The position numbers were made by a program, and so were the translations under genes. From contig NZ_JAUSZR010000001.1 in NCBI RefSeq assembly GCF_030817835.1, positions 1,674,001-1,738,000 of the forward strand: a stretch of 64,000 nucleotides of DNA. The letters run 5' to 3'. The notes under the pieces were generated by a model. It ran no database searches, was not told the origin of the DNA, and saw only the letters and a list, made by a program, of their open reading frames with translations. Source of the DNA: Pseudarthrobacter sp. W1I19. Lineage in GTDB: Bacteria > Actinomycetota > Actinomycetes > Actinomycetales > Micrococcaceae. Below, piece after piece: positions 12,602 to 53,626 of the stretch (position 1 is its first letter; each line of letters begins with the position of its first letter).

Positions 12602-12654
12602 CGTTCCCGCCTGGCCGCCCCGAAAATGTCGGTGCCCGGCCGTAGCTTTCACCT

Positions 12655-13052: not shown

Positions 13053-13173
13053 CCTGAAATGAATATACCGTGAACTGCCGGAAACATGAAGTCATCCCGG
13101 AAGTGTGTCCGGTGCACCGGAAAGCCCGTAGAAGCCAACGCTCGAGCACTGCGCCAACCATTATGATGATTGG

Positions 13174-13191
13174 TGTTCAACTGAATGAACA
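13174..13191. promoter_or_regulatory. IclR-type operator 1, upstream of the iclR-family gene
   Basis: TGTTCAACTGAATGAACA: 6-bp inverted repeat TGTTCA/TGAACA with a 6-nt spacer, ending 35 bp before the regulator start. The same 18-bp architecture recurs at 14073-14090 and 16649-16666. It suggests autoregulation. Confidence 0.7.
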
Positions 13192-13226
13192 GCATGACCA
13201 GCGCAGGCGCCTATATAAGGAGAATC

Positions 13227-14024
13227 ATGGCCGATTCCCGCAACTCCCGATCATCCGACGGCCTGGGAAGCGCCTCGCCGGCGCCCGCCGTTACCCGTGC
13301 AGCCGCGGTGCTCGATGCCCTCGCCGCGTCGGCAACCGGAAGACTGACCCTCAGCGACCTCGCCCGCGAGCTCGGCATCCCCAAGTCCTCCACATCCAAC
13401 CTCCTGCTGGCCCTCGAAGAAGCGCGCCTGATCAGCAGGCAGGGAGCGGAGTTCACCCTGGGCCGCAAGCTCGTGGAACTCGGTGCCGCCTACCTGAGCC
13501 GGCTGGATGAGGTGCAGGAGTTCTACCGGTACTGCGAACAGGCTCCCACGCTGTCCAGGGAGACGGTACGGATTGCCATGCTGGATGGAACGAACGTCAT
13601 CTACCTTGCCCGCTATGAAGGCCACCCCGCTGTCAGGCTGACCTCCAACATCGGCGACAAAATGCCGGTCTCGCTGTGTGCGGTGGGCAAGGCGCTGATG
13701 GCGCGCCTGAACGTACACGACATTGAGGAAATGTTCCCTGACGACGCCGAGCTGCCCGTTATGACGCCCAAGTCCCTCAGGACCGGGGCAGAGCTCAAAG
13801 CCCAGCTCCGGACCATCCGCGAGCAGGGCTACGCCTTTGAAGACGAGGAGTCCACCACCGGGGTGGTGTGCCTTGCGGTATCGGTACCCACCAGGGGTGC
13901 CCACGGTCCCAGCCTGGGACTATCCGTCACGGCCCTCAAGGCCACCTACACGGAGGAGCAGGGATCCCAGATGGTCAAGGAGCTCCGGGAGCTGGCCCGT
14001 TCCCTCGGAAACCCGATGGGCTAG
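13227..14024 (+). CDS. IclR-family transcriptional regulator
   Basis: A 265-residue regulator with an N-terminal winged helix-turn-helix (about residues 20-80, LTLSDLARELGIPKSSTSNL) and a C-terminal IclR effector domain (IAMLDGTNVIYLARYEG, KMPVSLCAVGKALMA, GVVCLAVSVP). The start is the ATG at 13227 behind AAGGAG (13219-13224); an in-frame ATG at 13185 lies inside the operator and is unlikely. The same operator-like motif stands before this gene, the next transporter gene and the convergent dehydrogenase gene, so these are its likely targets. The ligand is unknown. Confidence 0.92.
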   Translation: MADSRNSRSSDGLGSASPAPAVTRAAAVLDALAASATGRLTLSDLARELGIPKSSTSNLLLALEEARLISRQGAEFTLGRKLVELGAAYLSRLDEVQEFYRYCEQAPTLSRETVRIAMLDGTNVIYLARYEGHPAVRLTSNIGDKMPVSLCAVGKALMARLNVHDIEEMFPDDAELPVMTPKSLRTGAELKAQLRTIREQGYAFEDEESTTGVVCLAVSVPTRGAHGPSLGLSVTALKATYTEEQGSQMVKELRELARSLGNPMG

Positions 14025-14072
14025 CGGCGAAACCAAAGCCAACAGAATTATTCGGGCAAGGCGTTTGCCAGT

Positions 14073-14090
14073 TGTTCAACTTACTGTACG
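14073..14090. promoter_or_regulatory. IclR-type operator 2, upstream of the MFS transporter
   Basis: TGTTCAACTTACTGTACG matches the 18-bp motif of the other two sites: the left half is identical, and four of six right-half bases agree with TGAACA. It lies 86 bp before the transporter start, and another TGTTCA half site follows at 14092-14097. Confidence 0.65.
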
Positions 14091-14175
14091 CTGTTCAGCA
14101 TAGTGACGGGCACAACATGTGGCGTCACTGACCCACCAGGCCAACGGGGGCCTGGAGTGTGATGAGGGAGTTCTT

Positions 14176-15522
14176 GTGACAACTCGTACTAAAGCACCGC
14201 AGGCCGCGGACGGCGCCGTCGTCGAACCGGACCAGCTGCGAAGGGCAACTCTTGCCAGTTCCGTCGGCTCCGCACTGGAGTACTACGACTTTTACATCTA
14301 CGGCCTGGCTTCGGCGCTGATCTTCGGACCGCTGTTTTTTGCCCCGCTCGGGGAAAGCGGGGCAGTCATTGCCTCCTTTGCCACGTACGGCGTCGGCTTT
14401 GCGGCCCGCCCGTTTGGCGGCGTCGTCTTCGGCTACATCGGTGACCGGTTCGGCCGCAAAATGGTCCTGATTCTCACCATTGGGCTGATGGGCATGGCCA
14501 GCTTCGCCATCGGCCTGCTGCCCACCTTTGAACAGGCGGGCATGCTTGGCGCAGTCCTCCTGGTGACCCTGCGCATCATCCAGGGCCTGGGTGCGGGGGC
14601 TGAGCAGGCCGGTGCCACCACGCTTATCTCGGAAGTGGCCCCGCGCCGCCGTCGAGGTTTCTTCGCCTCGCTGCCGTTCGTCGGCATCCAGTTGGGCACC
14701 CTCCTGGGGGCCGGAACCTTTGCCCTGATGGCGCTGGCTGACAAGGAAGTCCTGCAGGGCTGGCTGTGGCGGGTGCCGTTCCTGGCCAGCTTCATCCTTA
14801 TTGTTATTGCCGTCTTCATCCGCCTCCGCCTGAAGGAAACCCCGGTTTTCCAGGAGCTCGAGAAGCACAAGGCCGTGGTGAAGAACCCCGTGGGCCAGAT
14901 CTGGAAACACTCCAAAAAGAACGTCCTGGTGGGCATCGGCCTGCGGATGGGCGAGAACGGCAACTCCTCCATCTACTCCGCGCTCCTGGTGTCGTTCATC
15001 AGCATGCCCGCCGGTGTGTTTGCCGGCGACAAGTTCATCGGCCCCACCGGTCTGCTGATCGCTGCCGGGTTCGCCGCTGTGATGGTGGTGACGTTCGGCG
15101 CCCTCTCCGACCGTTTTGGCCGCGTCCCCGTCTACAGGTACGGCGCCCTGTTCCAGGCAGTCATTGCCCTCCCGGCGTTCTACCTGGTGACCCTTGGAAA
15201 CGTCACGCTGGTCTGGGCGGTTATGGTGGTGGGCATCGCCCTGGGCGTGCAGTCCATGCTTGGCCCGCAGTGCGCGCTGCTGCCGGAACTGTTCGGCTCC
15301 CAGCACCGCTTCACGGGCGTTGCATTGAGCCGGGAACTGTCCGCCGTACTCGCCGGAGGCTTTGCCCCCATGATCGGCGTCGCCCTTCTGGCCGCGACCA
15401 ACCACTCGTGGCTGGTTCCCGCCATCTACTCACTGGTCCTGGCATCGATCTCGTTTGTGGCCACGTTCTTCACGCCTGAAACCGTGGGCCGGGACCTGGT
15501 CCTGGTGGAGGACGCCAGCTAG
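14176..15522 (+). CDS. MFS transporter, metabolite:H+ symporter (MHS) family
   Basis: A 448-residue, 12-helix permease of the ShiA/ProP/KgtP group that imports organic acids or related metabolites with protons. Diagnostic segments are ALEYYDFYIYGLAS in helix 1, the loop signature GYIGDRFGRKMVLI between helices 2 and 3, IIQGLGAGAEQAGA in helix 4, and the second loop GALSDRFGRVPVY. The GTG at 14176 is selected by GAGGGAG (14164-14170). It follows the IclR gene with its own operator and converges on a D-2-hydroxyacid dehydrogenase. The substrate cannot be read from sequence; a carboxylate is likely. Confidence 0.9.
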   Translation: MTTRTKAPQAADGAVVEPDQLRRATLASSVGSALEYYDFYIYGLASALIFGPLFFAPLGESGAVIASFATYGVGFAARPFGGVVFGYIGDRFGRKMVLILTIGLMGMASFAIGLLPTFEQAGMLGAVLLVTLRIIQGLGAGAEQAGATTLISEVAPRRRRGFFASLPFVGIQLGTLLGAGTFALMALADKEVLQGWLWRVPFLASFILIVIAVFIRLRLKETPVFQELEKHKAVVKNPVGQIWKHSKKNVLVGIGLRMGENGNSSIYSALLVSFISMPAGVFAGDKFIGPTGLLIAAGFAAVMVVTFGALSDRFGRVPVYRYGALFQAVIALPAFYLVTLGNVTLVWAVMVVGIALGVQSMLGPQCALLPELFGSQHRFTGVALSRELSAVLAGGFAPMIGVALLAATNHSWLVPAIYSLVLASISFVATFFTPETVGRDLVLVEDAS

Positions 15523-15541
15523 GTACTCGTTGGCCAACGCC

Positions 15542-42456: not shown

Positions 42457-42548
42457 AGCCCGCAACCCGCGGTTGCGCCATCATTTGGGGCTGCTGTGCC
42501 GCCGCTTGAAGATCTTGGCTTGTGTCCCTGGCCTTTAGACTTGGCGCC

Positions 42549-42671
42549 ATGTCTGCTGATGACGAGAAGGATCCGCCTGTTCCCGCCGACGTTGAGGGCA
42601 AGATCCCGAGAAAGGTCCACGACGACCCAGGCGACGAAGATGAGGACGAACCTGCCACTCAACAGGATTGA
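42549..42671 (+). CDS. Small acidic hypothetical protein (40 residues)
   Basis: ATG at 42549 to TGA at 42671 encodes a 40-residue, strongly acidic, proline-containing peptide (MSADDEKDPPVPADVEGKIP at the start, DDPGDEDEDEP near the end). It has no Shine-Dalgarno, but TAGACT stands exactly seven bases before the ATG, matching other leaderless starts in this window. It is disordered by composition and has no recognised family. Confidence 0.5.
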   Translation: MSADDEKDPPVPADVEGKIPRKVHDDPGDEDEDEPATQQD

Positions 42672-42742
42672 GTCCGCCGCCGCATCCGGACATAATTCCG
42701 GCGGTACATGGTGAACCGGCTGGGCCGAATGCAAAACAAAGA

Positions 42743-42776
42743 CGGCCCTGATCAGCTTTTAGGCTGGTCAGGGCCG
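42743..42776 (-). terminator. Ancestral tRNA-Arg terminator, now left of the element
   Basis: A stem of CGGCCCTGATCAGC with its near-complement (one G-T pair). On the minus strand it is followed by TCTTTGTTTTG. It lies just outside the left repeat and is the position where the tRNA-Arg transcript would have ended before integration. Confidence 0.75.
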
Positions 42777-42783
42777 CTCTTCT

Positions 42784-42825
42784 GTGTGCCCCAGGAGGGA
42801 ATCGAACCCCCGACCGGCGGATTAG
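42784..42825 (-). repeat. attL: left 42-bp direct repeat (tRNA-Arg 3' fragment)
   Basis: Identical to 53551-53592. It contains the T-arm, variable region and 3' half of the anticodon stem of tRNA-Arg and ends at GGATTAG beside the anticodon, the typical crossover region for tyrosine integrases in tRNA genes. The 5' half is missing, so it is not a functional tRNA. Confidence 0.92.
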
Positions 42826-43078
42826 CGGATGTTGGTTATGGACATCTTTGTACGTTCATGATTGTCCGCATGATCTGGCGGTTTCGGGGGACTGCCGAGT
42901 GGCATTCTCAGGAACGTTCATGGTTGATAATTGTTGTTTCCGGTGGGTAAGCGGTGGGCGACCTACCATCACATGCACTGCTGAAGTGTCTTGATCCCAA
43001 CATGTGCCTGATCCGCCGCCTATGATTGTTCTCGTGCCCAGGAGCATGAGGTGAGATCGTGACAGGGGGAAGCGTGGC
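42826..43078. promoter_or_regulatory. attL arm region with short repeats, no gene
   Basis: The gap from 42672 to 43078 holds no protein gene I can support. Besides the hairpin and attL it carries two near-identical 13-mers, ACGTTCATGATTG (42852-42864) and ACGTTCATGGTTG (42914-42926), 62 bp apart, and a 16-bp repeat GGTGGGTAAGCGGTGG (42942-42957) also found near the right end. These resemble arm-type sites for integrase or excisionase. Confidence 0.5.
42942..42957 (+). repeat. 16-bp repeat, copy 1 of 3 (candidate integrase arm site)
   Basis: GGTGGGTAAGCGGTGG, 117 bp inside the left repeat. Exact copies are at 52588-52603 and 53465-53480, all in the same orientation and none seen outside the element. 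Confidence 0.6.
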
Positions 43079-43345
43079 GTGGGAAGCAGTGACTATCCGT
43101 CTATGGACGTAAAAAAGCTTCGGCGCCTCCTTGAGAAGCTTGGTTACTCCGCCACTGGTAACGGCAAGGGCAGCCATGAGACACTGGAACATGAAAAGTA
43201 CCCGCCCCTGACGTTCTCCGGACATACGTCCAAGGAGATTTCCGGGGGACTGGTGAAGAAAATTCTGCGCAAAGATGTAGGGTTGAGCGACGAGCAGGCA
43301 AAGGAGGTTCTCCGTGGCAAATTCCGCCCAGATGATCATCACTAG
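43079..43345 (+). CDS. HicA-family toxin (type II toxin-antitoxin mRNA interferase)
   Basis: An 88-residue protein with the HicA double-stranded-RNA-binding-like fold: KKLRRLLEKLGYSATGNGKG, then the catalytic GSH (GKGSHETLEHEKYP) and the C-terminal helix GGLVKKILRKDVGLS. HicA toxins cut mRNA in the ribosome. GTG at 43079 follows AGGGGGA about nine bases upstream. It overlaps the next gene by 32 bp, the usual hicAB arrangement, but the partner is larger than normal HicB. Confidence 0.75.
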   Translation: MGSSDYPSMDVKKLRRLLEKLGYSATGNGKGSHETLEHEKYPPLTFSGHTSKEISGGLVKKILRKDVGLSDEQAKEVLRGKFRPDDHH

Positions 43346-43913
43346 GTGGGGCGAAGCACAATCTGTTTCTTTGTCGAGTCCTGACTTGCCCGGCATAGTG
43401 GCCGCCTTCGATCGGGATCCCAGCCCGTCTGAAATTATGCAAATAGCCATTGCGGCAGGTCTTTCAGAAGACGGTGAATTCCAGGTCCATATTGAGGAGA
43501 CGCTCACCGTGGAGGACGTGCAGTACTTTGTCCGAGCGCGTCACGACTTCCGGGCTGATTCTCGCCTAGCAGTGGTTGACCGCGTCCTTCATGAAATCAG
43601 CACCAATAAAGAATTCCGAGATCATGCCACCAAGGACAACTTGGACGATGTGATCATCATCGCGGCCCTCCCCGCTGACACGATTGCCGCGACTATCCAG
43701 AGCGCTAGCCCCAGGCAGCCGGTAAACGTCGCGTCGGTCAGCCCGGTAACAGAACACCTTTCCTGCGTAGCTATCGTCCGAGATGCAGCGGAAGTATCAG
43801 GGCCTTCCCTTGATGAACTTGGGCTTGGCCCCGATTCCCCAGTTGAAAAGCTTTTGCAGATGGAGCACGAGATCCGTCTGTCCCACGATCATGAACTGAT
43901 CCAATACTGCTAG
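43314..43913 (+). CDS. Putative antitoxin partner, HicB-like at the N-terminus
   Basis: A 199-residue protein starting at GTG 43314 with AAGGAGG at 43301-43307, overlapping hicA. Residues 15-50 (VSLSSPDLPGIVAAFDRDPS, then EIMQIAIAAGL) resemble the HicB partial RNase-H fold motif PDLPGV followed by a helix. The remaining 150 residues match no family I recognise and no C-terminal DNA-binding domain is evident, although HicB antitoxins usually carry one. Position argues for the antitoxin role; sequence support is weak. Confidence 0.5.
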   Translation: MANSAQMIITRWGEAQSVSLSSPDLPGIVAAFDRDPSPSEIMQIAIAAGLSEDGEFQVHIEETLTVEDVQYFVRARHDFRADSRLAVVDRVLHEISTNKEFRDHATKDNLDDVIIIAALPADTIAATIQSASPRQPVNVASVSPVTEHLSCVAIVRDAAEVSGPSLDELGLGPDSPVEKLLQMEHEIRLSHDHELIQYC

Positions 43914-43949
43914 TCACCACTGTTTCAGCTTTCCGGTCTAAACAGCTAT

Positions 43950-44426
43950 TCACCTTTGTATTAGAGCCTGGTCAACCCAGCTCCTAGTGGTGACGATCTG
44001 CCCATGCTGGGGGTAGACGTGCCAGGTCATCCACTCCAGGCGGGCTGCTGTCGCTGCAGCAGTCATTGCCGTGAGGGCCAGGTCATCGCCCTTGAACGCC
44101 ACTGCAAGGCCGTTGGGGTCGTCCTCGACGCGAGCCTTGAGGTCCTGCACGCCGGCCGCGAGCTCGTGCTTCTCATAGGTGTGGACGCTTGAGGCGAACG
44201 TGTAGCCGGGCCCGGCGATGGTCGCTGGCAGGTGGCCGGGGCGGCCGGGCAGGCAGGCAACTGTCTCGCTCCAGTCACCTACCCGCACCTGGTGCGACGC
44301 GCCCAAGACGTGGAGCTCCATGTCACCAACTTGAAGCGATGCCAGGGCCGGAATCTTGTCTAGCCCGAGCCTGTGCGTCAGGTCTGCGGCGGATGTATCT
44401 ATGAAAGGCGCGTCAGTGGCGAACAA
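43950..44426 (-). CDS. DUF2617 family protein
   Basis: A 158-residue protein resembling the actinobacterial DUF2617 family: PFIDTSAADLTHRLGLDKIP, MELHVLGASHQVRVG, ETVACLPGRPG and WMTWHVYPQHGQIVTTRS. Function is unknown. The start is probably TTG at 44426 with AAGGAA just upstream, only six bases past the stop of the DUF6283-like gene, so both are cotranscribed. Such genes are usually chromosomal; presence inside the element suggests capture. Confidence 0.7.
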   Translation of the reverse strand: MFATDAPFIDTSAADLTHRLGLDKIPALASLQVGDMELHVLGASHQVRVGDWSETVACLPGRPGHLPATIAGPGYTFASSVHTYEKHELAAGVQDLKARVEDDPNGLAVAFKGDDLALTAMTAAATAARLEWMTWHVYPQHGQIVTTRSWVDQALIQR

Positions 44427-44432
44427 GATTCC

Positions 44433-45449
44433 TTACCGGCCAGCCACGCCAACTGCGGCAGCTATGAGGACGACTTCGCCCACGCGCTCGATCGGGAAGG
44501 TTATCTGGCCTACCAAGTGCCCTGCCTCCAGAAATATCCAGCCGTGCTTCCTAAGTAGCTCCATAAAGCGCCGTTCCGCATCGTTTTCCACCTTGAACCT
44601 GACGACTGCGTTTCGACGCTTGACGGCCTCAGCGCAGGACACGGCCCGTGGGTTCTGTAGTGCATCTTGCAGCACGGTCGGGATCTGGTGCGGCGCCAGC
44701 CGTTCAATGGCATCACGGAGGTCCTGGCACGATTCGGTTGTCCGGATGCCGTTTTCCGCCATGATGGACAGCGCTTTGTGCAGAGCCTTGTCGACGGATA
44801 CCTCGTGGCCGTCCGCCGTGATCAGCATGGCCTGTTCATGGACAGTCCCGTGGTTCTCGCATACGGGGCAGGAGCAGGACGGGCCGATCCCGAAGTTCTG
44901 CAGCACGCTCGTCAAGGTCGCCAGGAGTGAGTCAGCGCCTCCCGCCCCCAGCCGCCACGCCTCGGACGTCACATCCACTCTTTCTGCGGGGTCCAGGACG
45001 TCGTCCAGGTCGGGGTTGGCCGGGACCGTCAGGGTAGGCCGCGCCTCGCCGCGAAGCCTCCTGATGGTGTACCGGAATGGGGCGAGTTGCAGGCCGGCAG
45101 GACGCGCCACAATGTACTCGCGCCAGGAGGGGTCCTCCATGGCGGTCTTCACCTCGTTGTGGATCATCGCTGTAATGCCGGCGCATTCCCGCGGCCTATC
45201 CAGGATTACCGGCTTCTGCAGGCCCATCTGCTCGCTGCGGGAGTCGTAGCCCGTGTTCTCTTCGCTGTCGAACATGTGGCATGGCAGCAGCCTGGATTCA
45301 CGGGTGATGCCTGCCCATATGCGTTCGAAGTTGTCCTTGTCGTACCAGCCTTGCGGCGCTTCGGTGTCTGCGTTCGACTTCCGGAAGGGGCATTCCTTGC
45401 ACGGTTGCTTAGCGGAGGGTGCGAGGTCTACACGTTGTGTGTTGGTCAT
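44433..45449 (-). CDS. DUF6283-like cysteine-motif protein of unknown function
   Basis: A 338-residue protein. The N-terminus has a cysteine cluster, KQPCKECPFRKSN then LLPCHMFD and RECAG, as in the phage-associated DUF6283 family, which may bind zinc or an iron-sulfur cluster. A middle segment has a second Cys cluster (PSCSCPVCENHG). The C-terminal part is helical with no recognised domain. The ATG at 45449 heads a two-gene unit with the DUF2617 gene. Function unknown. Confidence 0.65.
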   Translation of the reverse strand: MTNTQRVDLAPSAKQPCKECPFRKSNADTEAPQGWYDKDNFERIWAGITRESRLLPCHMFDSEENTGYDSRSEQMGLQKPVILDRPRECAGITAMIHNEVKTAMEDPSWREYIVARPAGLQLAPFRYTIRRLRGEARPTLTVPANPDLDDVLDPAERVDVTSEAWRLGAGGADSLLATLTSVLQNFGIGPSCSCPVCENHGTVHEQAMLITADGHEVSVDKALHKALSIMAENGIRTTESCQDLRDAIERLAPHQIPTVLQDALQNPRAVSCAEAVKRRNAVVRFKVENDAERRFMELLRKHGWIFLEAGHLVGQITFPIERVGEVVLIAAAVGVAGR

Positions 45450-45524
45450 GGCAACAGTCTGTTGCCTCGGCGAATTCCGCCCCTTCCTCGTTTCCGCGTC
45501 CGGAAATGACCGTAGGATGCAGGG

Positions 45525-46229
45525 ATGTTCTGGGGACTTTCTGAAACTTGGTGGATGCAGTTATGGAGCGGCGTCGTGGGTGCTTCCATCGCGGCCGGCG
45601 TTAGCATCTATGTCGCCTTGATCGTCGTCCAGCGCACTAACGCTCACCAGTCTGTGCTGTCAGGCAGGGCTCTGGCGGAGCAGCGCAAACGCGACGCTGA
45701 GGCGCTGGAGGAGCAGCGGGCCAGAGATGCTACTGCTTTGGAAGTTCAGCGTGCCGCGCTGAAGGAACAACTGGACGAGCAGCGGGAAGAAACAGCAAGG
45801 CTCCGGATGATGGACATCCGCGCCGATGTTGTCGCGGATGCAAACCATATCCTCGACATGGCCTTGCAGAACATGGAAGCAGTGGAGCGGGCAATCCCGC
45901 CGCTTTCGCGATCGATCACGCGCTGGCGCATAGAGAGCACTGACAAGGATCTCGTAGATGAACTGATGAACTGGCCGCCGTTTGTAGGCTGGCTGGCACG
46001 AGACTACCGAACAAAGACGGACCGGAAAAGCGTGCCACTGACGGAGCAGAACGCTGCCTTCCATCGGCTAAACAACGCCGTAAGCCTCCTAGGTGTCGTG
46101 GGAATCCACACGCCGACTGAGGACAACCACCTGATTGCGGGGCTGGATGTGGTCCTGCGGAAGATGCGGGTTGCCATAAATAATGGCGGCACTGGTGATC
46201 CCATGCCGAGCTCTGGCGACGAGGACTAA
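45525..46229 (+). CDS. Single-pass membrane protein with coiled coil, unknown function
   Basis: A 234-residue protein: one membrane helix (about residues 12-35, LWSGVVGASIAAGVSIYVAL), a charged coiled coil (about 50-95, LEEQRARDATALEVQRAALK) and a C-terminal soluble domain of about 130 residues with no recognised family. ATG at 45525 has TAGGAT six bases upstream (45513-45518) and GCAGGG next to it, so the message is leaderless or weakly led. Predicted topology puts the coiled coil in the cytoplasm. Confidence 0.6.
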   Translation: MFWGLSETWWMQLWSGVVGASIAAGVSIYVALIVVQRTNAHQSVLSGRALAEQRKRDAEALEEQRARDATALEVQRAALKEQLDEQREETARLRMMDIRADVVADANHILDMALQNMEAVERAIPPLSRSITRWRIESTDKDLVDELMNWPPFVGWLARDYRTKTDRKSVPLTEQNAAFHRLNNAVSLLGVVGIHTPTEDNHLIAGLDVVLRKMRVAINNGGTGDPMPSSGDED

Positions 46230-46390
46230 ATAGCCCGGGAGACGTCGAGCATCTTGACGATCTCAGGGACGGCAACGCCCTTGGCCGCACGACGGCGGTG
46301 TCTGTTTTGCGGGGGTGGCCGGCCGTGGCGGCTGTTCTGCGCGGCGACGGCCAGGCGGGCCTCACTGACCTCTACGAATCTGAGTGGACG
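46226..46390 (-). pseudogene. Possible remnant of a serine resolvase C-terminal HTH
   Basis: The minus frame ending at 46226 reads GRPPPQNRHRRRAAKG and VAVPEIVKMLDVSRAI, which resembles the GRPP linker and final helix-turn-helix of Hin-type serine recombinases. No suitable start exists before the frame runs into the excisionase-like gene, and no catalytic domain is present. It may be a fragment left by recombination or a chance match. Confidence 0.25.
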
Positions 46391-46401
46391 GACGTAGAGG
46401 G

Positions 46402-46617
46402 TCAGTTGGCAACCCTCGGCTGCAGCGCCCGGTACCGGTCCACGTCCGCCCACGGGATGCGCAACGGGCTGTTGGTGCGGGCTCGGCCGGTTTTGTAGGC
46501 GTTCGGGAAGTCCCCGGATCTCGCCATAATTCGAACGGTTTCCGGGTGCAGGCTCAAGTACTCCGCTACCTGCTGCACTGTGGCATCTCCTACAGGCGTG
46601 GCTCGGCTATTAGTCAT
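46402..46617 (-). CDS. Excisionase-like helix-turn-helix protein
   Basis: A 71-residue MerR/Xis-type winged-helix protein: TVQQVAEYLSLHPETVRIMA is the helix-turn-helix, followed by a wing-like NSPLRIPWADVDRYRAL. Such proteins act as recombination directionality factors or small regulators in integrated elements. The ATG (46617) has a weak ribosome site. Location inside the tRNA-Arg element supports an Xis role, although it is not next to the integrase. Confidence 0.65.
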   Translation of the reverse strand: MTNSRATPVGDATVQQVAEYLSLHPETVRIMARSGDFPNAYKTGRARTNSPLRIPWADVDRYRALQPRVAN

Positions 46618-46711
46618 GGTCAGAACCTATGGCCAGAGACGGCGCCGGAGCACCATTCCCTAACCTTGGCCGTGTCTCAGCAGGTTTCCCCAGCCATGGT
46701 TGAATCATTGG

Positions 46712-47269
46712 ATGCCATTGGACGTAATACAGGTCGAGCTAGTCGGAACTGACTGGTGGGAGAAAGCACTCCCAATTCTGGCCATCCTGATTTCAATAGG
46801 GACTCTCGCATGGACAATGGTGGCCCGCCAGCGTGACCAGGCGAGGCTCAAGGTAATCGCGACTTCCTTTACCCTCATCGGGGAAGGTCCTTGGGGACCA
46901 CGGCAGGGCGCCGACGAATGGCACGTGGCCGTCGATGTCACCAACGTTGGAAGGACGGGTTCAACCGTTGTGAGCAGCGTGAAGTTCAAACTGCCCAGCG
47001 GCGTACATCTCCAGAGCTTTGAGAGCTACCGATACCCCCAGCCTCTCCCCAAGACCCTCGCGCCGGGGGAGAGCCTGATGTATGTGTTCAACGTCGACGC
47101 CATGGCGGAGGAGCTCTCCAAGCACAGCTACAGGCCGGAGCAGCTTGTTCCGCTCGTTGTCTCTGGACATGGGCCGGCGACGGGGAAATGGGCCAAAGCC
47201 GGTCTGGACATCCTCAAGCGGCGAGTGGAAGCCAAGAGCGCTGCGGCGTCGGCACACACGTCCCGCTAA
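46712..47269 (+). CDS. Membrane-anchored hypothetical protein
   Basis: A 185-residue protein (TTG at 46700 would add four residues) with an N-terminal membrane helix (about residues 17-38, ALPILAILISIGTLAWTMV) and a beta-rich domain (DEWHVAVDVTNVGRTGSTVV, KTLAPGESLMYVFNVD) that looks Ig-like. No Shine-Dalgarno is visible. No family is recognised. With the 45525 gene it is one of two single-helix anchored orphans in the element. Confidence 0.5.
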   Translation: MPLDVIQVELVGTDWWEKALPILAILISIGTLAWTMVARQRDQARLKVIATSFTLIGEGPWGPRQGADEWHVAVDVTNVGRTGSTVVSSVKFKLPSGVHLQSFESYRYPQPLPKTLAPGESLMYVFNVDAMAEELSKHSYRPEQLVPLVVSGHGPATGKWAKAGLDILKRRVEAKSAAASAHTSR

Positions 47270-47340
47270 CAGGACACGTCCTATAGCGTGGGTGACGCCG
47301 GTCATCGTCCGGCGCGAGACAAACTACTGGGGAGTGCAAC

Positions 47341-47619
47341 ATGAGCAATGACTATTCGACCGCGTGGAACGCCCTGACTGAGGCAATCGGCGCAGCCAGG
47401 GGGCAAAGCGCGGGCAGCATCACGGATCAGGAGCATCTGACGGTGGACCAGCGACTCAAGGTTGCAGAAGTCGCCGCTCTCCTGTCCATCGCTCAGGAGC
47501 TGTCCGCCCTTAACCCGCAAAACACAAGCTCCCGGGATGACGACGGCAACACCGTCAACGGCTGGGGCGTCGTCACAAAGAAGGCCAAGCCAAAGCCAGG
47601 AAAACTCTCGGTGTCGTAA
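47341..47619 (+). CDS. Hypothetical protein, 92 residues
   Basis: A soluble, probably helical protein (WNALTEAIGAARGQSAG, QRLKVAEVAALLSIAQELSA) with a basic disordered tail (KKAKPKPGK). ATG at 47341 is preceded by GGGGAG, a good ribosome site. It resembles short phage-encoded proteins of unknown function. A strong hairpin follows at once. Confidence 0.6.
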   Translation: MSNDYSTAWNALTEAIGAARGQSAGSITDQEHLTVDQRLKVAEVAALLSIAQELSALNPQNTSSRDDDGNTVNGWGVVTKKAKPKPGKLSVS

Positions 47620-47623
47620 CACC

Positions 47624-47659
47624 CAGGGCGCCCCATGTCCGGGAAGATGGGGCGCCCTG
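47624..47659 (+). terminator. Hairpin after the 92-residue ORF
   Basis: A perfect 13-bp stem, CAGGGCGCCCCAT with its complement, and a 10-nt loop, starting 5 bp past the stop. It has no T-run. Confidence 0.7.
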
Positions 47660-47679
47660 CTCCAACTAGGATCGTAATC

Positions 47680-48075
47680 GTGACCAGGATGACCAAGCCC
47701 CAGAAATTGCTGCTCCTCGCTAACGGCTTCCTAGCCGGCCTGGCTGACCTGGGCGTTCAGGACCTTCCCTCGTCGAATATGGCGTTTGAACTCCCATTCA
47801 TGCAGGCTTGGCGCCGGTGGTACCACAGCACAAATGCGGTTATGCCGCCCGTGGGGTACGGAACTACCTGCCAACCGCGGGACATCCTCCACCGAGTCAG
47901 GCGTTCCACATCTCCGTTCAAGGACTTTGTCAACGAGGGGATCACGGACAGTCCATATGGTCTGACACCGCGGGAGTTCCTCGAGATCCACTGTGACGAG
48001 TTACCGGCCGACGCCTGGGTTGATCTGGCCAGCCTCTTCCTAAACGCTCTTAAAGGTGAGGCGCGGATACCGTAA
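47680..48075 (+). CDS. Hypothetical protein, 131 residues
   Basis: The frame is open from 47635, but GTG at 47680 has TAGGAT exactly seven bases upstream (47667-47672) directly after a terminator, arguing for a leaderless message starting there. The product is soluble (LLLLANGFLAGLADLGVQDL near the start, DELPADAWVDLASLFLNALK near the end) and matches no family I recognise. Confidence 0.55.
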   Translation: MTRMTKPQKLLLLANGFLAGLADLGVQDLPSSNMAFELPFMQAWRRWYHSTNAVMPPVGYGTTCQPRDILHRVRRSTSPFKDFVNEGITDSPYGLTPREFLEIHCDELPADAWVDLASLFLNALKGEARIP

Positions 48076-48171
48076 AACAGTGTTGCCTTTGTCGGCCAGA
48101 GAGCTGACGAGGGCAACACATGTTGGGGGACTTAACCGAGTCTTTTGTTGCTCGGGGGCGTGATCACAGCA

Positions 48172-48208
48172 GAAGACCCCGTGTGCGTTGCTGGCACGCG
48201 GGGTCTTC
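48172..48208. terminator. Bidirectional terminator between the 131-residue ORF and the protease gene
   Basis: Stem GAAGACCCCG with its complement, extended by GTGC/GCAC around a 7-nt loop. It lies between convergent genes ending at 48075 and 48233. Confidence 0.8.
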
Positions 48209-48232
48209 CTTAGCGTTCAGGAATTGGAGTGG

Positions 48233-49102
48233 TTACAGGTATTCGTCTAGCCAGTCCTGCACCACGGGGATGTCCACGCGCTGGTATCCGCCTAGGTAGC
48301 GGCAATTCGGCGTAAGGGTGTAGCTCGTGACAGCGACTAGGTATCCGTTGAGGAAGACGGGGCCGCCGGAGTCTCCGAAGCAGGTTCCGCCACCTCCTCG
48401 GTTATCGTTGGGGTTGCCTTGAAGCTGCAGGATCTGCGGGGTGAGCTTCTGGCCTGGCGCTGTTGTGTATCGGCGGAAGTTTGGGTAAAGCATGGGTTGC
48501 GGCTTCTGAGGTCCGCTTTCCGGCTTGCGCACTACGGTGCCATACCCGACGAGTTCAAAAATGGTGTGATTTAGCACTGACGGCTCGAATTGGTCGAGGT
48601 AATTCTCAGGAGCGAGCGTCGCAGGGGTAATGTCGGTGACCGGCTCGTTGAGGACAATAATTCCCACGTCGTTCCAGTTGTCGATGTCGGTGAAGTTGGA
48701 GTAGTCCGGGTGGGCTAACGGCGTTCCCCACAGGAAGCCGGCAGCTTCGAGCTCTTCGGGGGTGTAGCCGATGTCGGGATCAGTAGCGTCGGGAATGATG
48801 TCGTTGGCGTGATTCTCTGCGATGAAGGATTCAAAGGTGACAAGTACTGCTCCAGTTGTTCCTGTGGCGCAATGCGCCGCCGTGAGCAGAATTGTTGGTG
48901 AGATCAGCGTCGCCGAGCAGGAAGCCAGCCCGCCTCCCAATGGGTCGTCGGGCGAAAAGTAGAACGCGATCATGCCGACGTTGGGGTGGCGGTTGCCATC
49001 GGGTTCCCCGCCCGTTATCGCTGTGGCTGGCAAGGCGCCGGTGATGGTGAGAGCGAGCATTGCGGCTAGCAGGAGAGCCAGCCTCCGAAGTGGACGTTTC
49101 AC
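48233..49102 (-). CDS. Secreted trypsin-like serine protease (S1 family)
   Basis: A 289-residue chymotrypsin-fold protease with a Sec signal peptide (VKRPLRRLALLLAAMLALTI, cleavage near ALPATA). The triad is visible: His in LLTAAHCATG, Asp in DNWNDVGIIVL and Ser in CFGDSGGPVF. GTG at 49102 with AAGGGG upstream is preferred to the TTG at 49120. There is no long propeptide: ITGGEPDGNRHP follows the signal closely and resembles the IVGG N-terminus of activated S1 enzymes. It is cargo of the element. Confidence 0.85.
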   Translation of the reverse strand: MKRPLRRLALLLAAMLALTITGALPATAITGGEPDGNRHPNVGMIAFYFSPDDPLGGGLASCSATLISPTILLTAAHCATGTTGAVLVTFESFIAENHANDIIPDATDPDIGYTPEELEAAGFLWGTPLAHPDYSNFTDIDNWNDVGIIVLNEPVTDITPATLAPENYLDQFEPSVLNHTIFELVGYGTVVRKPESGPQKPQPMLYPNFRRYTTAPGQKLTPQILQLQGNPNDNRGGGGTCFGDSGGPVFLNGYLVAVTSYTLTPNCRYLGGYQRVDIPVVQDWLDEYL

Positions 49103-49120
49103 TGACCATGCCCCTTTCAA

Positions 49121-49442
49121 TCGGTGGTTCGTGCCCGCAACTTTAGTCCTCGCGGTTCCCCTCGCCTCTACCTAATCTTGAGTAGGGTAGGGGCGAGGGG
49201 AAAGCCTCCCGCACGGCCTGATTCAGCCTCAGCAGGCATCGCATAACCGGTCGATCTTTCCGTGGGCGCTCGGGCAGCAAGAGACCCCCGCGTCCGTTGA
49301 CTCGATCCGCAGGGGTCTCTCTATGGCTGCTCCGCACATGGGGGACGTGCATGGTCGCTGCAGCAAAAGTAGTGCACGAGATGCCATATTTCCAAAATCG
49401 TTACCGACTACAGTTGGGGAACTCGACCGGTCTTGTGTAGCC
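49121..49442. other. Non-coding stretch in the element
   Basis: No gene is supported in this interval. It contains a C/G-rich hairpin near 49158-49200 (CCCTCGCC with GGCGAGGG at the ends) and the hairpin at 49280-49320 that can end the deacetylase transcript. Confidence 0.5.
49280..49320 (-). terminator. Hairpin downstream of the broken deacetylase gene
   Basis: Stem AGAGACCCC (49280-49288) with GGGGTCTCT (49312-49320) and a 23-nt loop, 120 bp past the deacetylase stop on the minus strand. Confidence 0.6.
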
Positions 49443-50820
49443 CTAAAGCGTCATGCGTCCCAGGGCCTCTTGCATGGTCACGACTTCACAGCCGGACGCT
49501 GCGATGGCATCGAGAACCGCGGTTAGCACTGTTGGGGTGATCGCGTTTGCGTCACCACCTGAGGGGACGATGGCGTGAAGCATGACAAAGAGGACGCCCT
49601 TGTCGTTGTGGGCTTTCGTGGCCGCTGCTCCGATAGCCGTTGCGCCTTGGGTGATGTTTTCTGCGAGCAGGGAGTACCGGCGGGCGGGGGTGGTTGTCTC
49701 ATTGAATCCGTGCGAGGACGCCAGGCGGGACGCGCTCCAGTACTTGGCTACGTCCGCTTCGGTGGCCACGTCATGTGTTCCGAGCGGGTAGGCGTGCGAG
49801 GGGGAACTAAACCCTAGCGCCTTCTGCCAGGCCTTGACCGCTTCAAATTCCGCGATCCGCTGCTCCGGCGTGAGGTCAGGTAGTCCCTTGGCGTGCGAGG
49901 ATGCGTCGTAGCAGTGAGCCCCTACTTCCCAGCCGTAGGTGTCGTGCAGTTCGATCACCTGCGCGTCCGTCAGGAAGATATTGGAGTCCGTACCGTGGGC
50001 GCCCGGTATCGGCATCAGTGTTGCCCTCCAGCCACGCGCAGACAGTGCTGGGCGGAGCGCGGTGTACTGAGTGACTGGGAATCGTCGGCAGTGATAACCA
50101 CTAGGCCGTTCGGGTTTTTCCCAAAGGTGTCCCTCTTGACGAAATCCAAGCTGTGCAGTCGGATCTCCGTTGGGTTTCCGGTGGTGTTAGAGATTCCGAT
50201 GCGGACGAACTGGAGGGCGGACCACGGCGCGTTGCCGCGAACTTGGATTGCGGGATGTCCAGGACGATCCAGCGGTCTTTCTGGAGGGCGTATGACGCTG
50301 CTGAGGCGCCGCCTGCGGTGAAGCCGATGGTGGCGGATGATGTCAGGGTTGCGGAGCTGTTGCCTACCACCACCTGGATGGCGGTGAAGTCGTAGTCGGT
50401 CACCTTGATAGTGATCCGGACGTTGCAGTCGGTCGCGTCGAATGTGGTGTCCATTGTTCGGGTTGCGTAGACGTGAGCGGCTGTGCCGGTGGTGATAAGC
50501 CGGAGGCACCTGTCGCCGAAGTATGCATCGGCGGTGTAGTCGGGGGTGCTTGCCGCGTCCTTGTTCGCTTGGGCCGGGATCGTCCATCCACTGGATGCCC
50601 TGTTCGCTGGTGCACGGCGCAGTACGCGGGCCGCTGATTCGCTGCGGGGGATGTAGGTTGTTGCGGCTTCGGACTTGTCGAGCTTCGGTGCAGCCGCCCC
50701 CTTGGATTCATAAGTGGCATTTAGTGCCCCTCGAGTCGCGCTGGCGGGGTCCGCGATTTTGTCGGCCGCAGCAGAGTCCAGGCCGTGCAGGGTGAGTGGT
50801 TTCGGATCAAGAAAGCCCAT
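49443..50820 (-). pseudogene. Phage-tail-type polysaccharide deacetylase, broken by two frameshifts
   Basis: Three minus-strand frames join into one protein. The first (from 50820) begins MGFLDPKPLTLHGLDSAAAD, an N-terminus typical of Arthrobacter phage minor tail proteins, then a beta-rich module ending IVLDIPQSKF near 50243. The second reads GNAPWSALQFVRIGISNTTG to VVITADDSQS near 50070, containing the NodB motif 1 (TADD). The third runs from ALRPALSARGWRATLMPIPG through VGAHCYDASSHAKG (motif 2 histidines) to the stop. Each junction needs one missing base. The N-terminus overlaps the preceding gene by 14 bp. Confidence 0.75.
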
Positions 50821-51115
50821 TGTGGTTCTCCAAAATATCGGCGGTTACGTGGTCTGCTAAGCCGGTGTTCTGAGGCCGTCCGTCATCGGTCCTTTGGATC
50901 TGCGCGGCTTCAGGTGCATCTGCCGGGTCCGCGTCGGTGCTATCCACCGGATACCCACCGCTTTCCGCTGTCTTCTGCCGCAGCAGGGCGTTCTTTGCAC
51001 CCATCAGGAATGCCCGCTGCTCCGGGGTGGCGTGCAGCTCGCCGGCGTCCATCTTCCGGATGTCTTCCTCGAGGACCAGGCCCGCGGCATGAAGCCCTTC
51101 CGCCGTCCCGGTCAC
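50807..51115 (-). CDS. Hypothetical phage-type protein, 102 residues
   Basis: A soluble acidic protein: helical N-terminus (AAGLVLEEDIRKMDAGELHA, EQRAFLMGAKNALLRQK) and a disordered acidic middle (DSTDADPADAPEAAQ). GTG at 51115 overlaps the previous stop (GTGA), and its own end overlaps the tail-deacetylase start, so it belongs to one minus-strand transcription unit running from 52405. No family is recognised. Confidence 0.6.
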   Translation of the reverse strand: MTGTAEGLHAAGLVLEEDIRKMDAGELHATPEQRAFLMGAKNALLRQKTAESGGYPVDSTDADPADAPEAAQIQRTDDGRPQNTGLADHVTADILENHNGLS

Positions 51116-51789
51116 TTCCTTGCCCCTGCGAAGTTGAGGCCGGCGTCTCGGGCCGCGTACAGGGACTTGGAGATGTAATCGCCCTGGACCCAGCTCGTCC
51201 CGGCGTCGGCGTTGAGTTTGGTGCCCAGCTCGTTGTCGATCAAGGAGAAGTCGTGAGGGATGGTGCCGGTGGCGAGGAAGTAACGGATGGTGGCGGCCCG
51301 CGTTTCGTGCCGGTGCGCCTTATGGTCGAGCTGCCATGCTTTGCCTACCTGCTGCCCGGAGGGGCGCCCCGTCAAAACGTCGATACCGGCAGCCCGGTCC
51401 CAGCCGCATTCGTCCAGGTCCTCGAGCTGGCACTTCAGGTCAGCTACTTTTCCTGCATGCGAGGTGGATTCCTTGCGGGCGCTCGCCGCCAGCTTGTCCT
51501 CTTCCCGGGCCTCCATCTCCAGCGCTTCCCGCTGTGCGTCATGGAGCTTTTTCCGGGCCTCGGCTGCGGCCTGGTCATAGGCGCGGGCTCGGCGCTCGTG
51601 CGCCTGAATGTTGAGGGTGATGCGCTCTGCTGCTGATTCGTCCAAGAGGATCGCGGCACCTGACTCTGCGTCGAGGCGGGCGGCTTCTTCGCGGGCGGCA
51701 GAGGCTTTGCCTTTCCATTCGGTGACTACGGATTCGGCCTTGGTGACCGCGGCCTGAGCCTGTTCAAGGCCCTTGCTGAAAATTCCCAT
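51112..51789 (-). CDS. Coiled-coil hypothetical protein, phage-type
   Basis: A 225-residue protein with a long coiled coil (about residues 5-125: EQAQAAVTKAESVVTEWKGK, AYDQAAAEARKKLHDAQREA) and a smaller C-terminal domain (HRHETRAATIRYFLATGTIP, GTSWVQGDYISKSLYAARDA). It is the second gene of the minus-strand unit with the deacetylase. No family is recognised; a structural or scaffolding role is a guess. Confidence 0.65.
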   Translation of the reverse strand: MGIFSKGLEQAQAAVTKAESVVTEWKGKASAAREEAARLDAESGAAILLDESAAERITLNIQAHERRARAYDQAAAEARKKLHDAQREALEMEAREEDKLAASARKESTSHAGKVADLKCQLEDLDECGWDRAAGIDVLTGRPSGQQVGKAWQLDHKAHRHETRAATIRYFLATGTIPHDFSLIDNELGTKLNADAGTSWVQGDYISKSLYAARDAGLNFAGARK

Positions 51790-51817
51790 GCTGGTGTGCT
51801 CCTAATGCCGGGGTGGC

Positions 51818-52405
51818 TTAGCTGTAAGAGATGATGGTGTGGTTGCTATTGGTGGCGCTGCGGCTTTCCCTCTTCTTGAGGGGTTTACCGGAGGGGGCCT
51901 GCTGCTCGGCTGCGGCAGCCCGCGGCGCTTTGGATTCTGGGGTGAGGGTGCGGGCGAGTTTTTCTGCCAGCTTGGTTAGGAAGCGTGAGACGGATTCCTG
52001 GCGCTTGTCCTCGTAAGGAGTGGTCTTGGCGGCTTCGGTATACGCCTCGACGGCGATCTGGTGGGCTTCCGATTCGGCGAGGTAGATACCCTTGGATCCG
52101 TCGGTGCGCATGATCGCTTCAGCGAGTGCCTTGGTTGCGGCATCTGCTGATTCCCGGGCCGCCCAAATGGCTACCGCTTCGAGACCGTCGCCACGACGCT
52201 GCAGCGGAACTTCTCCCTCGGTAGCGGCTCGCTGTGGTTCGCGTCCGAAGGCCTTGGCTATCGCGTCCTGATTGGCGCGTTCCTGGGCTGAGGGGCGGCC
52301 GTTGAGGGCGTCTGAAACCTCGCGTGCGGACCTGCCCGCCTGTTCGGTAGAACGGCCCTTGAGCGCCGCCAGGATGTCCTGGTCCGTGATGTTCTTGCCT
52401 GCCAT
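51818..52405 (-). CDS. Helical hypothetical protein, phage-type
   Basis: A 195-residue, Ala/Glu/Arg-rich protein (MAGKNITDQDILAALKGRST at the start; ESVSRFLTKLAEKLARTLTP; basic tail PSGKPLKKRES). It is first in the minus-strand unit 52405-49443, and GAGGAGCC precedes its ATG. No family is recognised. The region upstream carries a GC hairpin (52444-52478). Confidence 0.6.
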   Translation of the reverse strand: MAGKNITDQDILAALKGRSTEQAGRSAREVSDALNGRPSAQERANQDAIAKAFGREPQRAATEGEVPLQRRGDGLEAVAIWAARESADAATKALAEAIMRTDGSKGIYLAESEAHQIAVEAYTEAAKTTPYEDKRQESVSRFLTKLAEKLARTLTPESKAPRAAAAEQQAPSGKPLKKRESRSATNSNHTIISYS

Positions 52406-52587
52406 GTTGGCTCCTCGTACTGAGATTCTGTGTGGTCCGGTGGCGCCCCGATCCGCCTTCCACGAGCGGTCCGGGGCGTTTCCACTAACCCGGCGAGGTT
52501 CCCGGAGGAACTTCCAACATCAGTCTCTGTCGGAGTGCGATTTCAGGGCTTCCGCGCTTCCGGAGACGGAAACGCGGGGGAGTAAAT

Positions 52588-52603
52588 GGTGGGTAAGCGG
52601 TGG
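52588..52603 (+). repeat. 16-bp repeat, copy 2 of 3
   Basis: GGTGGGTAAGCGGTGG, identical to copies at 42942 and 53465. It lies in the otherwise gene-poor stretch 52406-52742 upstream of the integrase fragment. Confidence 0.6.
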
Positions 52604-52742
52604 ATCGAGCACGCCATGAATGCAGAAAGGCGGGCTGTCCGCCTGCGCTCACGGGATAGTCCTCCTTCGGAACCTGCGATCGGACTGTTAGCGGACCGGC
52701 TAAGCGGCGACGTCCTTGGCCAGAACATAGTCCTCCCGCCAG

Positions 52743-53042
52743 GTGCAGCAGCTCGTGGCTAACCCTTGGGACGTGGTCTTCCCGTCCTCCACCGGCACGC
52801 TGCGGGATCCGGGGAACTTTCGGAAGCAGTGGCGCTCCGCCCGGGATGACATCGGCTTCCAGTGGGTCACTCTGCATACGTTCCGGAAGTCCGTGGGGAC
52901 GCTTCTGGCCAAGTCTGAGGGCATGGCCTCGGCCTCCGCCCAGTTGGGTCACTCCAGCGAGCAGATCACCAGCCGGCACTACGTCCAGAAAACTCACGAG
53001 GCTCCGGACATGACTAGCCTGCTGCAGGCGTTCGGGGCATGA
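52743..53042 (+). pseudogene. Tyrosine integrase, C-terminal fragment
   Basis: About 99 residues covering the end of a phage-type tyrosine recombinase catalytic domain: VTLHTFRKSVGTLLA (H-x-x-R), SAQLGHSSEQITSRHYVQ (second His and nucleophile Tyr). The core-binding domain, first Arg and catalytic Lys are absent, and a TAG stop is in frame just upstream (52728-52730), so it cannot be active. It faces the right repeat, the normal position of an integrase. The next gene starts on its stop (ATGA). Confidence 0.8.
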
Positions 53043-53473
53043 ACGGTGGGCGCGAGGCGCGGGTGCGTGAGCTGGTGGAAAGATTTCGTGCGGCTGCTCT
53101 ACACCCAGACATGAGGCGACATGCGGGCTTCTATTCCTTCCCGTGGGGGTCGTGCACGTGGGCCTCGTTCGCGCTGGGTCACCTGCTTGCTGAGGTGGAG
53201 CCGGAAGTGGATTGGCACATGGTGAATGCGGCGGGACCGTCAGCAATCCAAGGTCATGACTGGCTGGAGGGCGAGGGGCTGGTAGTGGATGTGACAGCCG
53301 ACCAGTTCCCTGGCTTCACTGCCTACGTTGGACCTGGTCCCGTTCCGCTTCCGCCGGCATACCAGCGCAAGCAGCGCATCGAACTGACGGAATGGGATCC
53401 TCCACATGCCGAGGCTCTGACGACGCTTCGCCAACTCATGGCAGAACTTGGGGAAAAGCAAAGCGGTGGGTAA
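53039..53473 (+). CDS. Small protein with candidate Cys-His-Asp (papain/transglutaminase-like) triad
   Basis: A 144-residue protein with FPWGSCTWASFALGHLLAEV (Cys at the start of a helix), GHDWLEGEGL (His) and VVDVTADQFPG (Asp), spaced as in papain-like or transglutaminase-like domains; the VDxTADQF phrase recurs in small bacterial proteins of this sort (recollection). Reaction and target are unknown. ATG at 53039 overlaps the integrase stop, and the gene ends in the third 16-bp repeat near the right junction. Confidence 0.6.
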   Translation: MNGGREARVRELVERFRAAALHPDMRRHAGFYSFPWGSCTWASFALGHLLAEVEPEVDWHMVNAAGPSAIQGHDWLEGEGLVVDVTADQFPGFTAYVGPGPVPLPPAYQRKQRIELTEWDPPHAEALTTLRQLMAELGEKQSGG

Positions 53474-53480
53474 GCGGTGG
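53465..53480 (+). repeat. 16-bp repeat, copy 3 of 3
   Basis: GGTGGGTAAGCGGTGG, 71 bp inside the right repeat; it includes the stop codon of the preceding gene. Confidence 0.6.
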
Positions 53481-53508
53481 ATTGTCTGAATCTCAAACGA
53501 AAAATGAA

Positions 53509-53544
53509 GCGGCTCTGATCTACGTTTCCTCAGGTCAGAGCCGC
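53509..53544 (-). terminator. Element-borne replacement terminator for tRNA-Arg
   Basis: Stem GCGGCTCTGATC with near-complement; on the minus strand it follows the tRNA-Arg 3' end by 10 nt and is followed by TTCATTTTTCG. The hairpin resembles in position, not in sequence, the one at 42743-42776. Confidence 0.75.
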
Positions 53545-53550
53545 TTTTCG

Positions 53551-53592
53551 GTGTGCCCCAGGAGGGAATCGAACCCCCGACCGGCGGATTAG
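53551..53592 (-). repeat. attR: right 42-bp direct repeat within tRNA-Arg
   Basis: Identical to 42784-42825; it forms the 3' part of the intact tRNA-Arg. The right copy therefore restored the tRNA on integration. Confidence 0.92.
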
Positions 53593-53626
53593 AAGGCCGC
53601 TGCTCTATCCCCTGAGCTACTGAGGC
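53554..53626 (-). tRNA. tRNA-Arg (TCT)
   Basis: The minus strand gives acceptor GCCTCAG with CTGGGGC (one G-T pair), D-arm GCTCAGGGGATAGAGC, anticodon arm with loop CTTCTAA (anticodon TCT, reads AGA) and T-arm GGGGGTTCGATTCCCTC. Discriminator A at 53554; CCA is not encoded. It is the integration target of the element to its left. Confidence 0.95.

Follow-up and report, generated by a model that had tools for sequence, protein, structure and literature searches.

A decayed element in the tRNA-Arg(TCT) gene of Pseudarthrobacter sp. W1I19 and its probable kinship with compact phage satellites

The window analyzed here is a 64,000-nucleotide stretch of the Pseudarthrobacter sp. W1I19 genome, and it holds a 10.8-kb element in the tRNA-Arg(TCT) gene that is probably the degraded remnant of a compact phage satellite, belonging to an undescribed family in the Arthrobacter group. 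The element carries the two marks of this family, a three-gene module (o195-o225-o102) and a 16-bp motif found at both ends and inside, and the gene set of a complete prophage (head, tail, packaging, and lysis) is not found in it. Judged from their gene content, the elements of this family are best read as satellites that would build chimeric virions. A literature search, with subscription papers and preprints outside its scope, showed no Arthrobacter or actinobacterial satellites of this type among the records listed. An earlier sequence-only reading of the window had delimited the element; its kind, a phage-satellite relic, is added here.

A discrete element in tRNA-Arg(TCT)

Integration of a discrete element in tRNA-Arg(TCT) is supported by direct repeats, by nine empty sites in relatives, and by homologous elements in the same tRNA elsewhere. 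The two copies of the 42-bp attachment (att) repeat are identical at 42 of 42 bases, cannot be lengthened by one base on either side, and consist of the 3′ part of the tRNA plus two bases. They belong to a longer pair of 83 nt (87% identical) that includes a terminator-like hairpin after both copies, and the distance from repeat to repeat is 10,767 bp. ARAGORN and Rfam called one tRNA-Arg(TCT) only, that of the right end, and no tRNA at 42784, and a 110-base query around the tRNA gave four matches in its own genome, which were the tRNA itself, the left repeat (95%), and two others at 81% and 77%. The G+C content of the element is 60.8%, with flanks of 67.1% and 65.7%.

The sequence-only reading had proposed a 10.8-kb element with 42-bp repeats in this tRNA and had expected relatives in which an empty site joins the flanks, and the exact repeats, the intact tRNA, and the relatives bear it out. 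Both flanks were matched in order on one contig in at least 15 of 58 relatives (flank counts here and below are among the matches listed, with gaps calculated from match coordinates). In 9 of the 15 the flanks lie 39–118 bp apart (G021, 80 bp; G025, 118 bp; G009, 56 bp; G017, 55 bp; G029, 45 bp; G007, 56 bp; G003, 56 bp; G026, 57 bp; G001, 39 bp). The gap is 328 bp to 34 kb in the other six (G004, G016, G011, G006, G020, and G035), so other DNA sits there, and together with the empty sites this marks the locus as one into which DNA has integrated repeatedly. Local duplication can yield tRNA fragments, and the repeat might in principle have arisen by chance or by duplication within the tRNA without any integration, but the nine empty sites and the recurrence of the same architecture in other genomes make this extremely improbable. 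The boundaries, which had been described as visible to the base, proved less sharp, as the crossover can be placed only within the 42 bp of the repeat.

The left flank also departs from relatives over approximately 279 bp outside the repeat (42505–42783). About 240 bp of this stretch, with a 49-aa open reading frame (ORF), is DNA that recurs elsewhere in relatives (88% in G021), and the stretch ends in a terminator of the element-borne type, in the place of which a CCCCGG-type terminator is found in three of the relatives with an empty site. An element that occupied the site earlier may have left this stretch behind.

Kin elements, the o195-o225-o102 module, and the 16-bp motif

The module, a tyrosine integrase, and the motif recur together in five other tRNA-borne elements of 13.0–16.3 kb, bounded by direct repeats of 39–66 bp, and in one IMG/VR contig. 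Three of these kin occupy tRNA-Met(CAT), in Arthrobacter sp. efr-133-R2A-120 (G065, 14.6 kb), Arthrobacter sp. FB24 (G144, 14.3 kb), and Arthrobacter sp. StoSoilB22 (G177, 16.3 kb), and two occupy tRNA-Arg(TCT), in Pseudarthrobacter oxydans USM2 (G131, 15.8 kb) and P. psychrotolerans (G137, 13.0 kb). The contig (UViG_2667527555_000001, hereafter L158) has the integrase, the module, and four strict motif copies. ORFs were called with a custom script, which predicted 122 in the five kin. Read from the integrase inward, the kin encode a helix-turn-helix (HTH) regulator, an Xis-like HTH protein or antirepressor, a replication initiator (O-like or DnaD-like), a phrog_3678 protein, a 147-aa winged-helix protein, and then o195, o225, and o102, followed by a variable region of virion genes and cargo. 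An uninterrupted integrase frame is present in G065, G131, and G144.

The central module gene, o225, is present in 6 of 206 genomes of the genus and in 7 of 395 sampled genomes of the family, some of these having distant relatives only; the distant relatives in G375, G410, and G278 were covered by tblastn and motif screening. A protein database holds 53 relatives, of which the named ones are hypothetical proteins of the Arthrobacter group, and a tblastn search of o225 against 50,697 phage records gave no match. Identity among the five kin is approximately 55–76%. The predicted structure (predicted local distance difference test, pLDDT, 90.8) combines a pair of long helices in antiparallel arrangement with a small domain at the C-terminus, a fold reminiscent of scaffolds from which we would guess at a role in assembly.

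Module and integrase can also be found apart. In an element of Crystallibacter degradans SF27 (L157, approximately 2490–15540) the module is accompanied by a serine recombinase (Pfam Resolvase, 1.4e-28), and a reading of the sequence places this element inside a cpaF-like gene, with part of that gene on either side. Conversely, the same integrase family is found in a 37.3-kb prophage-like element of G002, which occupies the same tRNA-Arg and has both repeats, and the window-type integrase is found in compact elements of G203, G215, and G141 (11.9, 12.1, and 9.6 kb) that have no o195-o225-o102. Two of these three (G203 and G215) encode replication functions and a tape measure.

The motif was found by a direct-repeat search of the element, as a 16-mer in three copies close to both ends and inside. 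In its strict form, GGTGGGTWWNCGGTGG, all four copies in the 4.81-Mb genome lie inside the element and the reversed control has none; allowing up to two mismatches raises the genome-wide count to seven, of which four lie in the element. Among the 206 genus genomes, 12 contain the exact 16-mer and 2 the reversed control. The 12 are the window genome, the five kin genomes, G203, G215, and G141 with their elements lacking the module, G002 with its prophage, G114, which has a truncated integrase and one end motif site, and G009, which has a motif-bearing cassette without a window-type integrase. Seven elements contain 31 copies, compared with a mean of 0.0015 and a maximum of 1 for permuted motifs (n = 2000). 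The exact motif is also held by 13 IMG/VR stretches, of which one contig (L141/L158) was analyzed.

Position within the elements is constant. The end motifs keep distances of 156–159 bp and 86–88 bp to the tRNA 3′ sequence in all seven elements measured, the G002 prophage included. Such a fixed end-site geometry is how the attP arm-type sites of tyrosine integrases look. We propose from this arrangement, which the satellite-type elements share with a prophage carrying their integrase, that the end motifs are putative arm-type sites. Internal strict copies are found in all seven elements that have both the window-type integrase and the module (two in the window, three in G065, two in G131, two in G137, three in G144, four in G177, and three in L158), in none of the four elements with the integrase only (G002, G203, G215, and G141), and not in the one element with the module and a serine integrase (SF27). 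They are located upstream of o195, within o102, and between cargo genes, and an orientation recurs across elements, from left end to right end, of +, −, −, +, +. Thus, the motif follows the integrase, and is internal only where the module is present. Two simpler accounts of the motif were considered: that it is part of the satellite core is not favored because the SF27 element has the core and zero copies, and that it is an att arm only is insufficient given the internal copies in all seven module elements.

Virion genes, the proposed satellite function, and its alternatives

Each of the kin carries one to three virion genes related to those of the Arthrobacter phages TripleJ and Kukla. A tape measure is encoded in G065, G131, G137, G177, and L158 (as in G203 and G215; phrog_1533, 1.4e-84), a MuF minor head protein (Phage_Mu_F) in G144, G177, and L158, and Neck1 in G137, with a tblastn match to it in G065 as well. 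Identity to these nearest phage relatives is 67% for MuF, 51% for Neck1, 50–56% for the tape measure, 45–48% for phrog_3678, and 85% for an HTH protein. When 32 TripleJ proteins were searched by tblastn against eight sequences (the window, the five kin, L158, and L157), eight matched at least one sequence and 24 matched none. No match in the eight sequences was found for the TripleJ large terminase subunit (TerL), portal, major capsid protein, tail terminator, major tail protein, or tail chaperone, and L158 alone also matches the head protease and gp82. Across the five kin there are 20 ORFs of at least 250 aa, and all except one (G144, 251 aa) have an assignment.

The tape measures are shorter than those of the phages. 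They have 1027–1039 aa in G065, G131, G137, and G177, 1110 aa in G215, and at most 1034 aa in G203 and 1038 aa in L158, compared with 1461 aa in TripleJ and 1351 aa in Kukla. The alignment skips from residue 46–48 to residue 130 in G065, G137, and G177, and the G131 protein keeps both ends of the TripleJ protein and is missing approximately 290 residues from the middle. The length of the tape measure determines tail length, and shorter tails are therefore predicted for particles built with the kin proteins.

If these elements are satellites, the tyrosine integrase would cross over at the anticodon-loop end of the tRNA and would use the motif copies as its arm-site binding targets. When a TripleJ-like helper infects the cell, the satellite would excise, replicate from its own initiator, and be packaged in helper particles, and it would build its own tape measure, neck, or MuF protein into those particles, with o195-o225-o102 perhaps helping to redirect particle assembly. 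We advance only tentatively, and with more doubt than belief, the stronger proposal of a new lineage that both makes chimeric virions from two or three parts of its own (shortened tape measure, neck, MuF, tail fiber) in a helper capsid and has planted the arm motif of its integrase around the module, the integrase or Xis doubling as the switch or packaging mark of the module.

An ordinary decayed prophage would explain part of the same evidence. On that account, a TripleJ-like or related temperate phage in tRNA-Arg lost its capsid, packaging, and lysis genes, and the kin reflect parallel decay of one lineage. The virion genes of the kin do derive from phage, the same integrase family drives the 37-kb prophage of G002 in the same tRNA, the integrase is broken in the window and in several kin, and the window tail gene is frame-broken. 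However, the five kin keep the compact order and the module at the o225 divergence given above and none has TerL, portal, or major capsid protein, the o225 search finds the module in no phage record, and the tape measures are intact though internally shortened. Because random decay would not converge on a shared compact order with intact tape measures, we regard this account as unlikely.

Several observations weigh against the satellite reading itself. Two of the five kin, G137 and G177, have an interrupted integrase frame, as does G141, and either decay or faulty assembly could account for this. Of the 122 kin ORFs, 20 were scanned against PHROGs and a few more against Pfam. A search of the o225 fold in PDB and BFVD returned nothing at or below E 0.001. 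Six of the 206 genus genomes have a TripleJ-type capsid gene, but the six genomes with satellite-type elements are not among them, so co-residence gives the helper reading no support. Finally, the reading of two proteins as small terminase found no support: phrog_3678 is distinct from the gene recorded as the small terminase of LuckyBarnes, and the 147-aa HTH protein has an hhalign probability of 1% against TripleJ gp82 and a winged-helix fold nearest to phage Xis (E 0.03), so no packaging-redirecting protein is identified.

The comparison with known satellites draws on published work (PMC12987554, PMC10654092, PMC10690885, PMC11389934, PMC13097055, and PMC10482375). The phage-inducible chromosomal island-like element (PLE) of Vibrio cholerae encodes a tape measure and forms chimeric tails, a mechanism reported as new in 2026, and putative tmp genes are noted in other satellites, including capsid-forming phage-inducible chromosomal islands (cf-PICIs) (PMC12987554 and its extended data). 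Like the PLE, the kin are small, integrated, presumably phage-dependent elements with their own tape measure (PMC12987554); they differ in hosts and helper, in using a tyrosine integrase in tRNA genes, and in carrying MuF or neck genes besides tmp. This is a likeness of description, for which we claim no sequence relationship, and we infer mobilization of the kin from genes alone. Phage-inducible chromosomal islands (PICIs) and Staphylococcus aureus pathogenicity islands (SaPIs) share with the kin a size of 10–16 kb, a site-specific tyrosine integrase, an AlpA-like regulator, a replication initiator, and the lack of capsid genes (summarized in PMC11389934 and PMC10690885), whereas the kin have no identified small terminase, rpp, or cpm homolog and carry tail and head-connector genes instead. 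Candidate Mycobacterium PICIs of the cf-PICI kind are likewise actinobacterial, integrated in tRNA genes, and equipped with partial virion gene sets, but carry a major capsid gene, which was the search criterion (PMC10654092), and the kin show none. MulchRoom and MiniFlayer, satellites of Streptomyces phages, are also found in Actinomycetota; they encode terminase, portal, and capsid without a recognized primase (PMC10690885), and the kin show the reverse. TripleJ and Kukla themselves have lysogeny genes and differ from the kin in their size of 45–47 kb, a full virion gene set, no motif copy, and no o225 homolog. By analogy, the family would work like a satellite of the PLE or PICI sort, but we assign it to neither, as it showed no PICI packaging gene and lacks the capsid set of the cf-PICIs.

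If the satellite reading is correct, the kin would form an actinobacterial lineage of their own, with neck and MuF genes and with tape measures that are shortened internally. They would allow a direct test of whether satellites set their own tail length, with TripleJ- or Kukla-like phages as candidate helpers and a standard host, and comparison of the tyrosine-integrase elements with the serine-integrase element that has the same module would separate the integrase-linked DNA code from the satellite core.

The window copy as a relic and its cargo

By comparison with G131, the window copy reads as the relic of a kin-type element that has lost approximately 5.9 kb and whose tail gene is frame-broken. 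Similarity to G131 spans window positions 52345–52614 and 52731–53037, which lie 5.9 kb apart in G131 (Table 1). The missing part includes integrase residues 1–292, the regulator, the antirepressor, the replication initiator, phrog_3678, and the 147-aa gene. What is left of the integrase includes a 99-aa ORF (52743–53042) that encodes the C-terminal portion of a tyrosine integrase. It is 94% identical over 98 aa to the integrases of the genus genomes G002 and G131, and it matches 106 phage records, the best among those listed being Arthrobacter phages (51–54%). No close integrase was found elsewhere in the genome, where three other Phage_integrase matches are at best 21–27% identical. The att repeats and motif sites are intact, and the copy would be stranded unless an integrase acts on them in trans.

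Table 1. Features of the element and its integration site, in window coordinates.
Feature	Position	Strand	Remarks
Left copy of 42-bp att repeat	42784–42825		tRNA 3′ part without 5′ half
End motif GGTGGGTAAGCGGTGG	42942–42957	+	Proposed arm-type site; 156 bp from start of left tRNA 3′ copy
HicA-family toxin gene	43079–43345	+	Pfam HicA_toxin 1.6e-11; 94% in G009
199-aa partner in HicB position	43314–43913	+	No Pfam or PHROG match; 87% in G009
DUF2617 protein	43950–44426	−	Pfam 2.6e-45; also in G009, G144
338-aa protein	44433–45449	−	DUF6283 match below threshold
234-aa protein, N-terminus hydrophobic	45525–46229	+	No family
AlpA/Xis-like HTH_17 protein (excisionase-like)	46402–46617	−	Pfam 5.3e-8, phrog_66 4.7e-6; 73–75% in G131, G009, G177
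189-aa cargo protein	46700–47269	+	61% in G177
92-aa cargo protein	47341–47619	+	85% in G177
146-aa cargo protein	47635–48075	+	69% in G144, 57% in SF27 element
Trypsin-like protease	48233–49120	−	Pfam Trypsin 1.3e-13; 70% copy elsewhere in own genome
Tail-fiber/deacetylase gene	49443–50820	−	Two frame changes
o102	50807–51115	−	Module gene
Internal motif GGTGGGTATCCGGTGG	50944–50959	−	Within o102
o225	51112–51789	−	Module gene; predicted long antiparallel coiled coil
o195	51818–52405	−	Module gene
Internal motif	52588–52603	+	Upstream of o195
Deletion junction	52615–52730		116 bp without similarity where G131 has ~5.9 kb
Integrase fragment	52737–53042	+	From residue 293 of ~398
144-aa protein adjoining int	53039–53473	+	61% relative beside G114 int fragment
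End motif	53465–53480	+	Proposed arm-type site; 88 bp from tRNA 3′ end
Right copy of 42-bp att repeat	53551–53592		Within intact tRNA
Intact tRNA-Arg(TCT)	53553–53626	−	ARAGORN and Rfam

The gene types listed in the sequence-only reading were borne out, with a HicA toxin, an HTH_17 or excisionase-like protein, a trypsin, an integrase C-terminal piece, and a tail gene with two frame changes. The tail gene spans three frames; its N-terminus is like TripleJ gp30 and its C-terminal part like minor tail proteins of Gordonia phages, and the N-terminal part (239 aa) gave no match among phage records. PADLOC, run on 10 window proteins, returned one weak match only, of o225 to PDC-S06 (17 bits), which we judged to be coiled-coil noise.

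The HicA, DUF2617, and trypsin cargo is island-like, and a non-phage island or mobilizable element that shares its tyrosine integrase with phages and integrative and conjugative elements (ICEs), with phage genes as hitch-hiking cargo, would accommodate it. The same integrase family adjoins a very large protein with a relaxase-like N-terminus, by reading, in G073 and G022. Such an origin is very unlikely, since neither relaxase nor conjugation genes were seen in the element and the kin have a replication initiator, an antirepressor, and virion genes of phage type. In G022 (L102, L103) and G073 (L104, L105) the integrase lies in tRNA-Met beside proteins of 1189–1230 aa, whose relaxase-like N-terminus was recognized by reading and not by family search, and a matching left-type motif lies approximately 78–147 kb away. 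These are possibly ICEs that share the integrase and att code of the satellites.

DUF2617 and its DUF6283-like neighbor form a pair that is cargo in three elements (the window at 43950–45449, G144, and G009) and has no PADLOC match. The sequence-only reading had held that the same genes outside any tRNA context would count against integration, and one such cassette exists: hicA-hicB-DUF2617-DUF6283-alpA on contig 6 of G009 (L100, 6762–10395), located beside, not at, a tRNA-Leu element. It does not undo the integration reading, which stands. Motif copies flank the cassette, which also has an att-like stretch fused to sequence that is not tRNA, and it lies approximately 2.5 kb from the tRNA-Leu, which is occupied by a different integrase. 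The paralog of the trypsin-like protease in the W1I19 genome (70%; G000:C1:1059581-1060470, L106 6589–7461) adjoins a tail-fiber-like ORF and an integrase near tRNA-Tyr.

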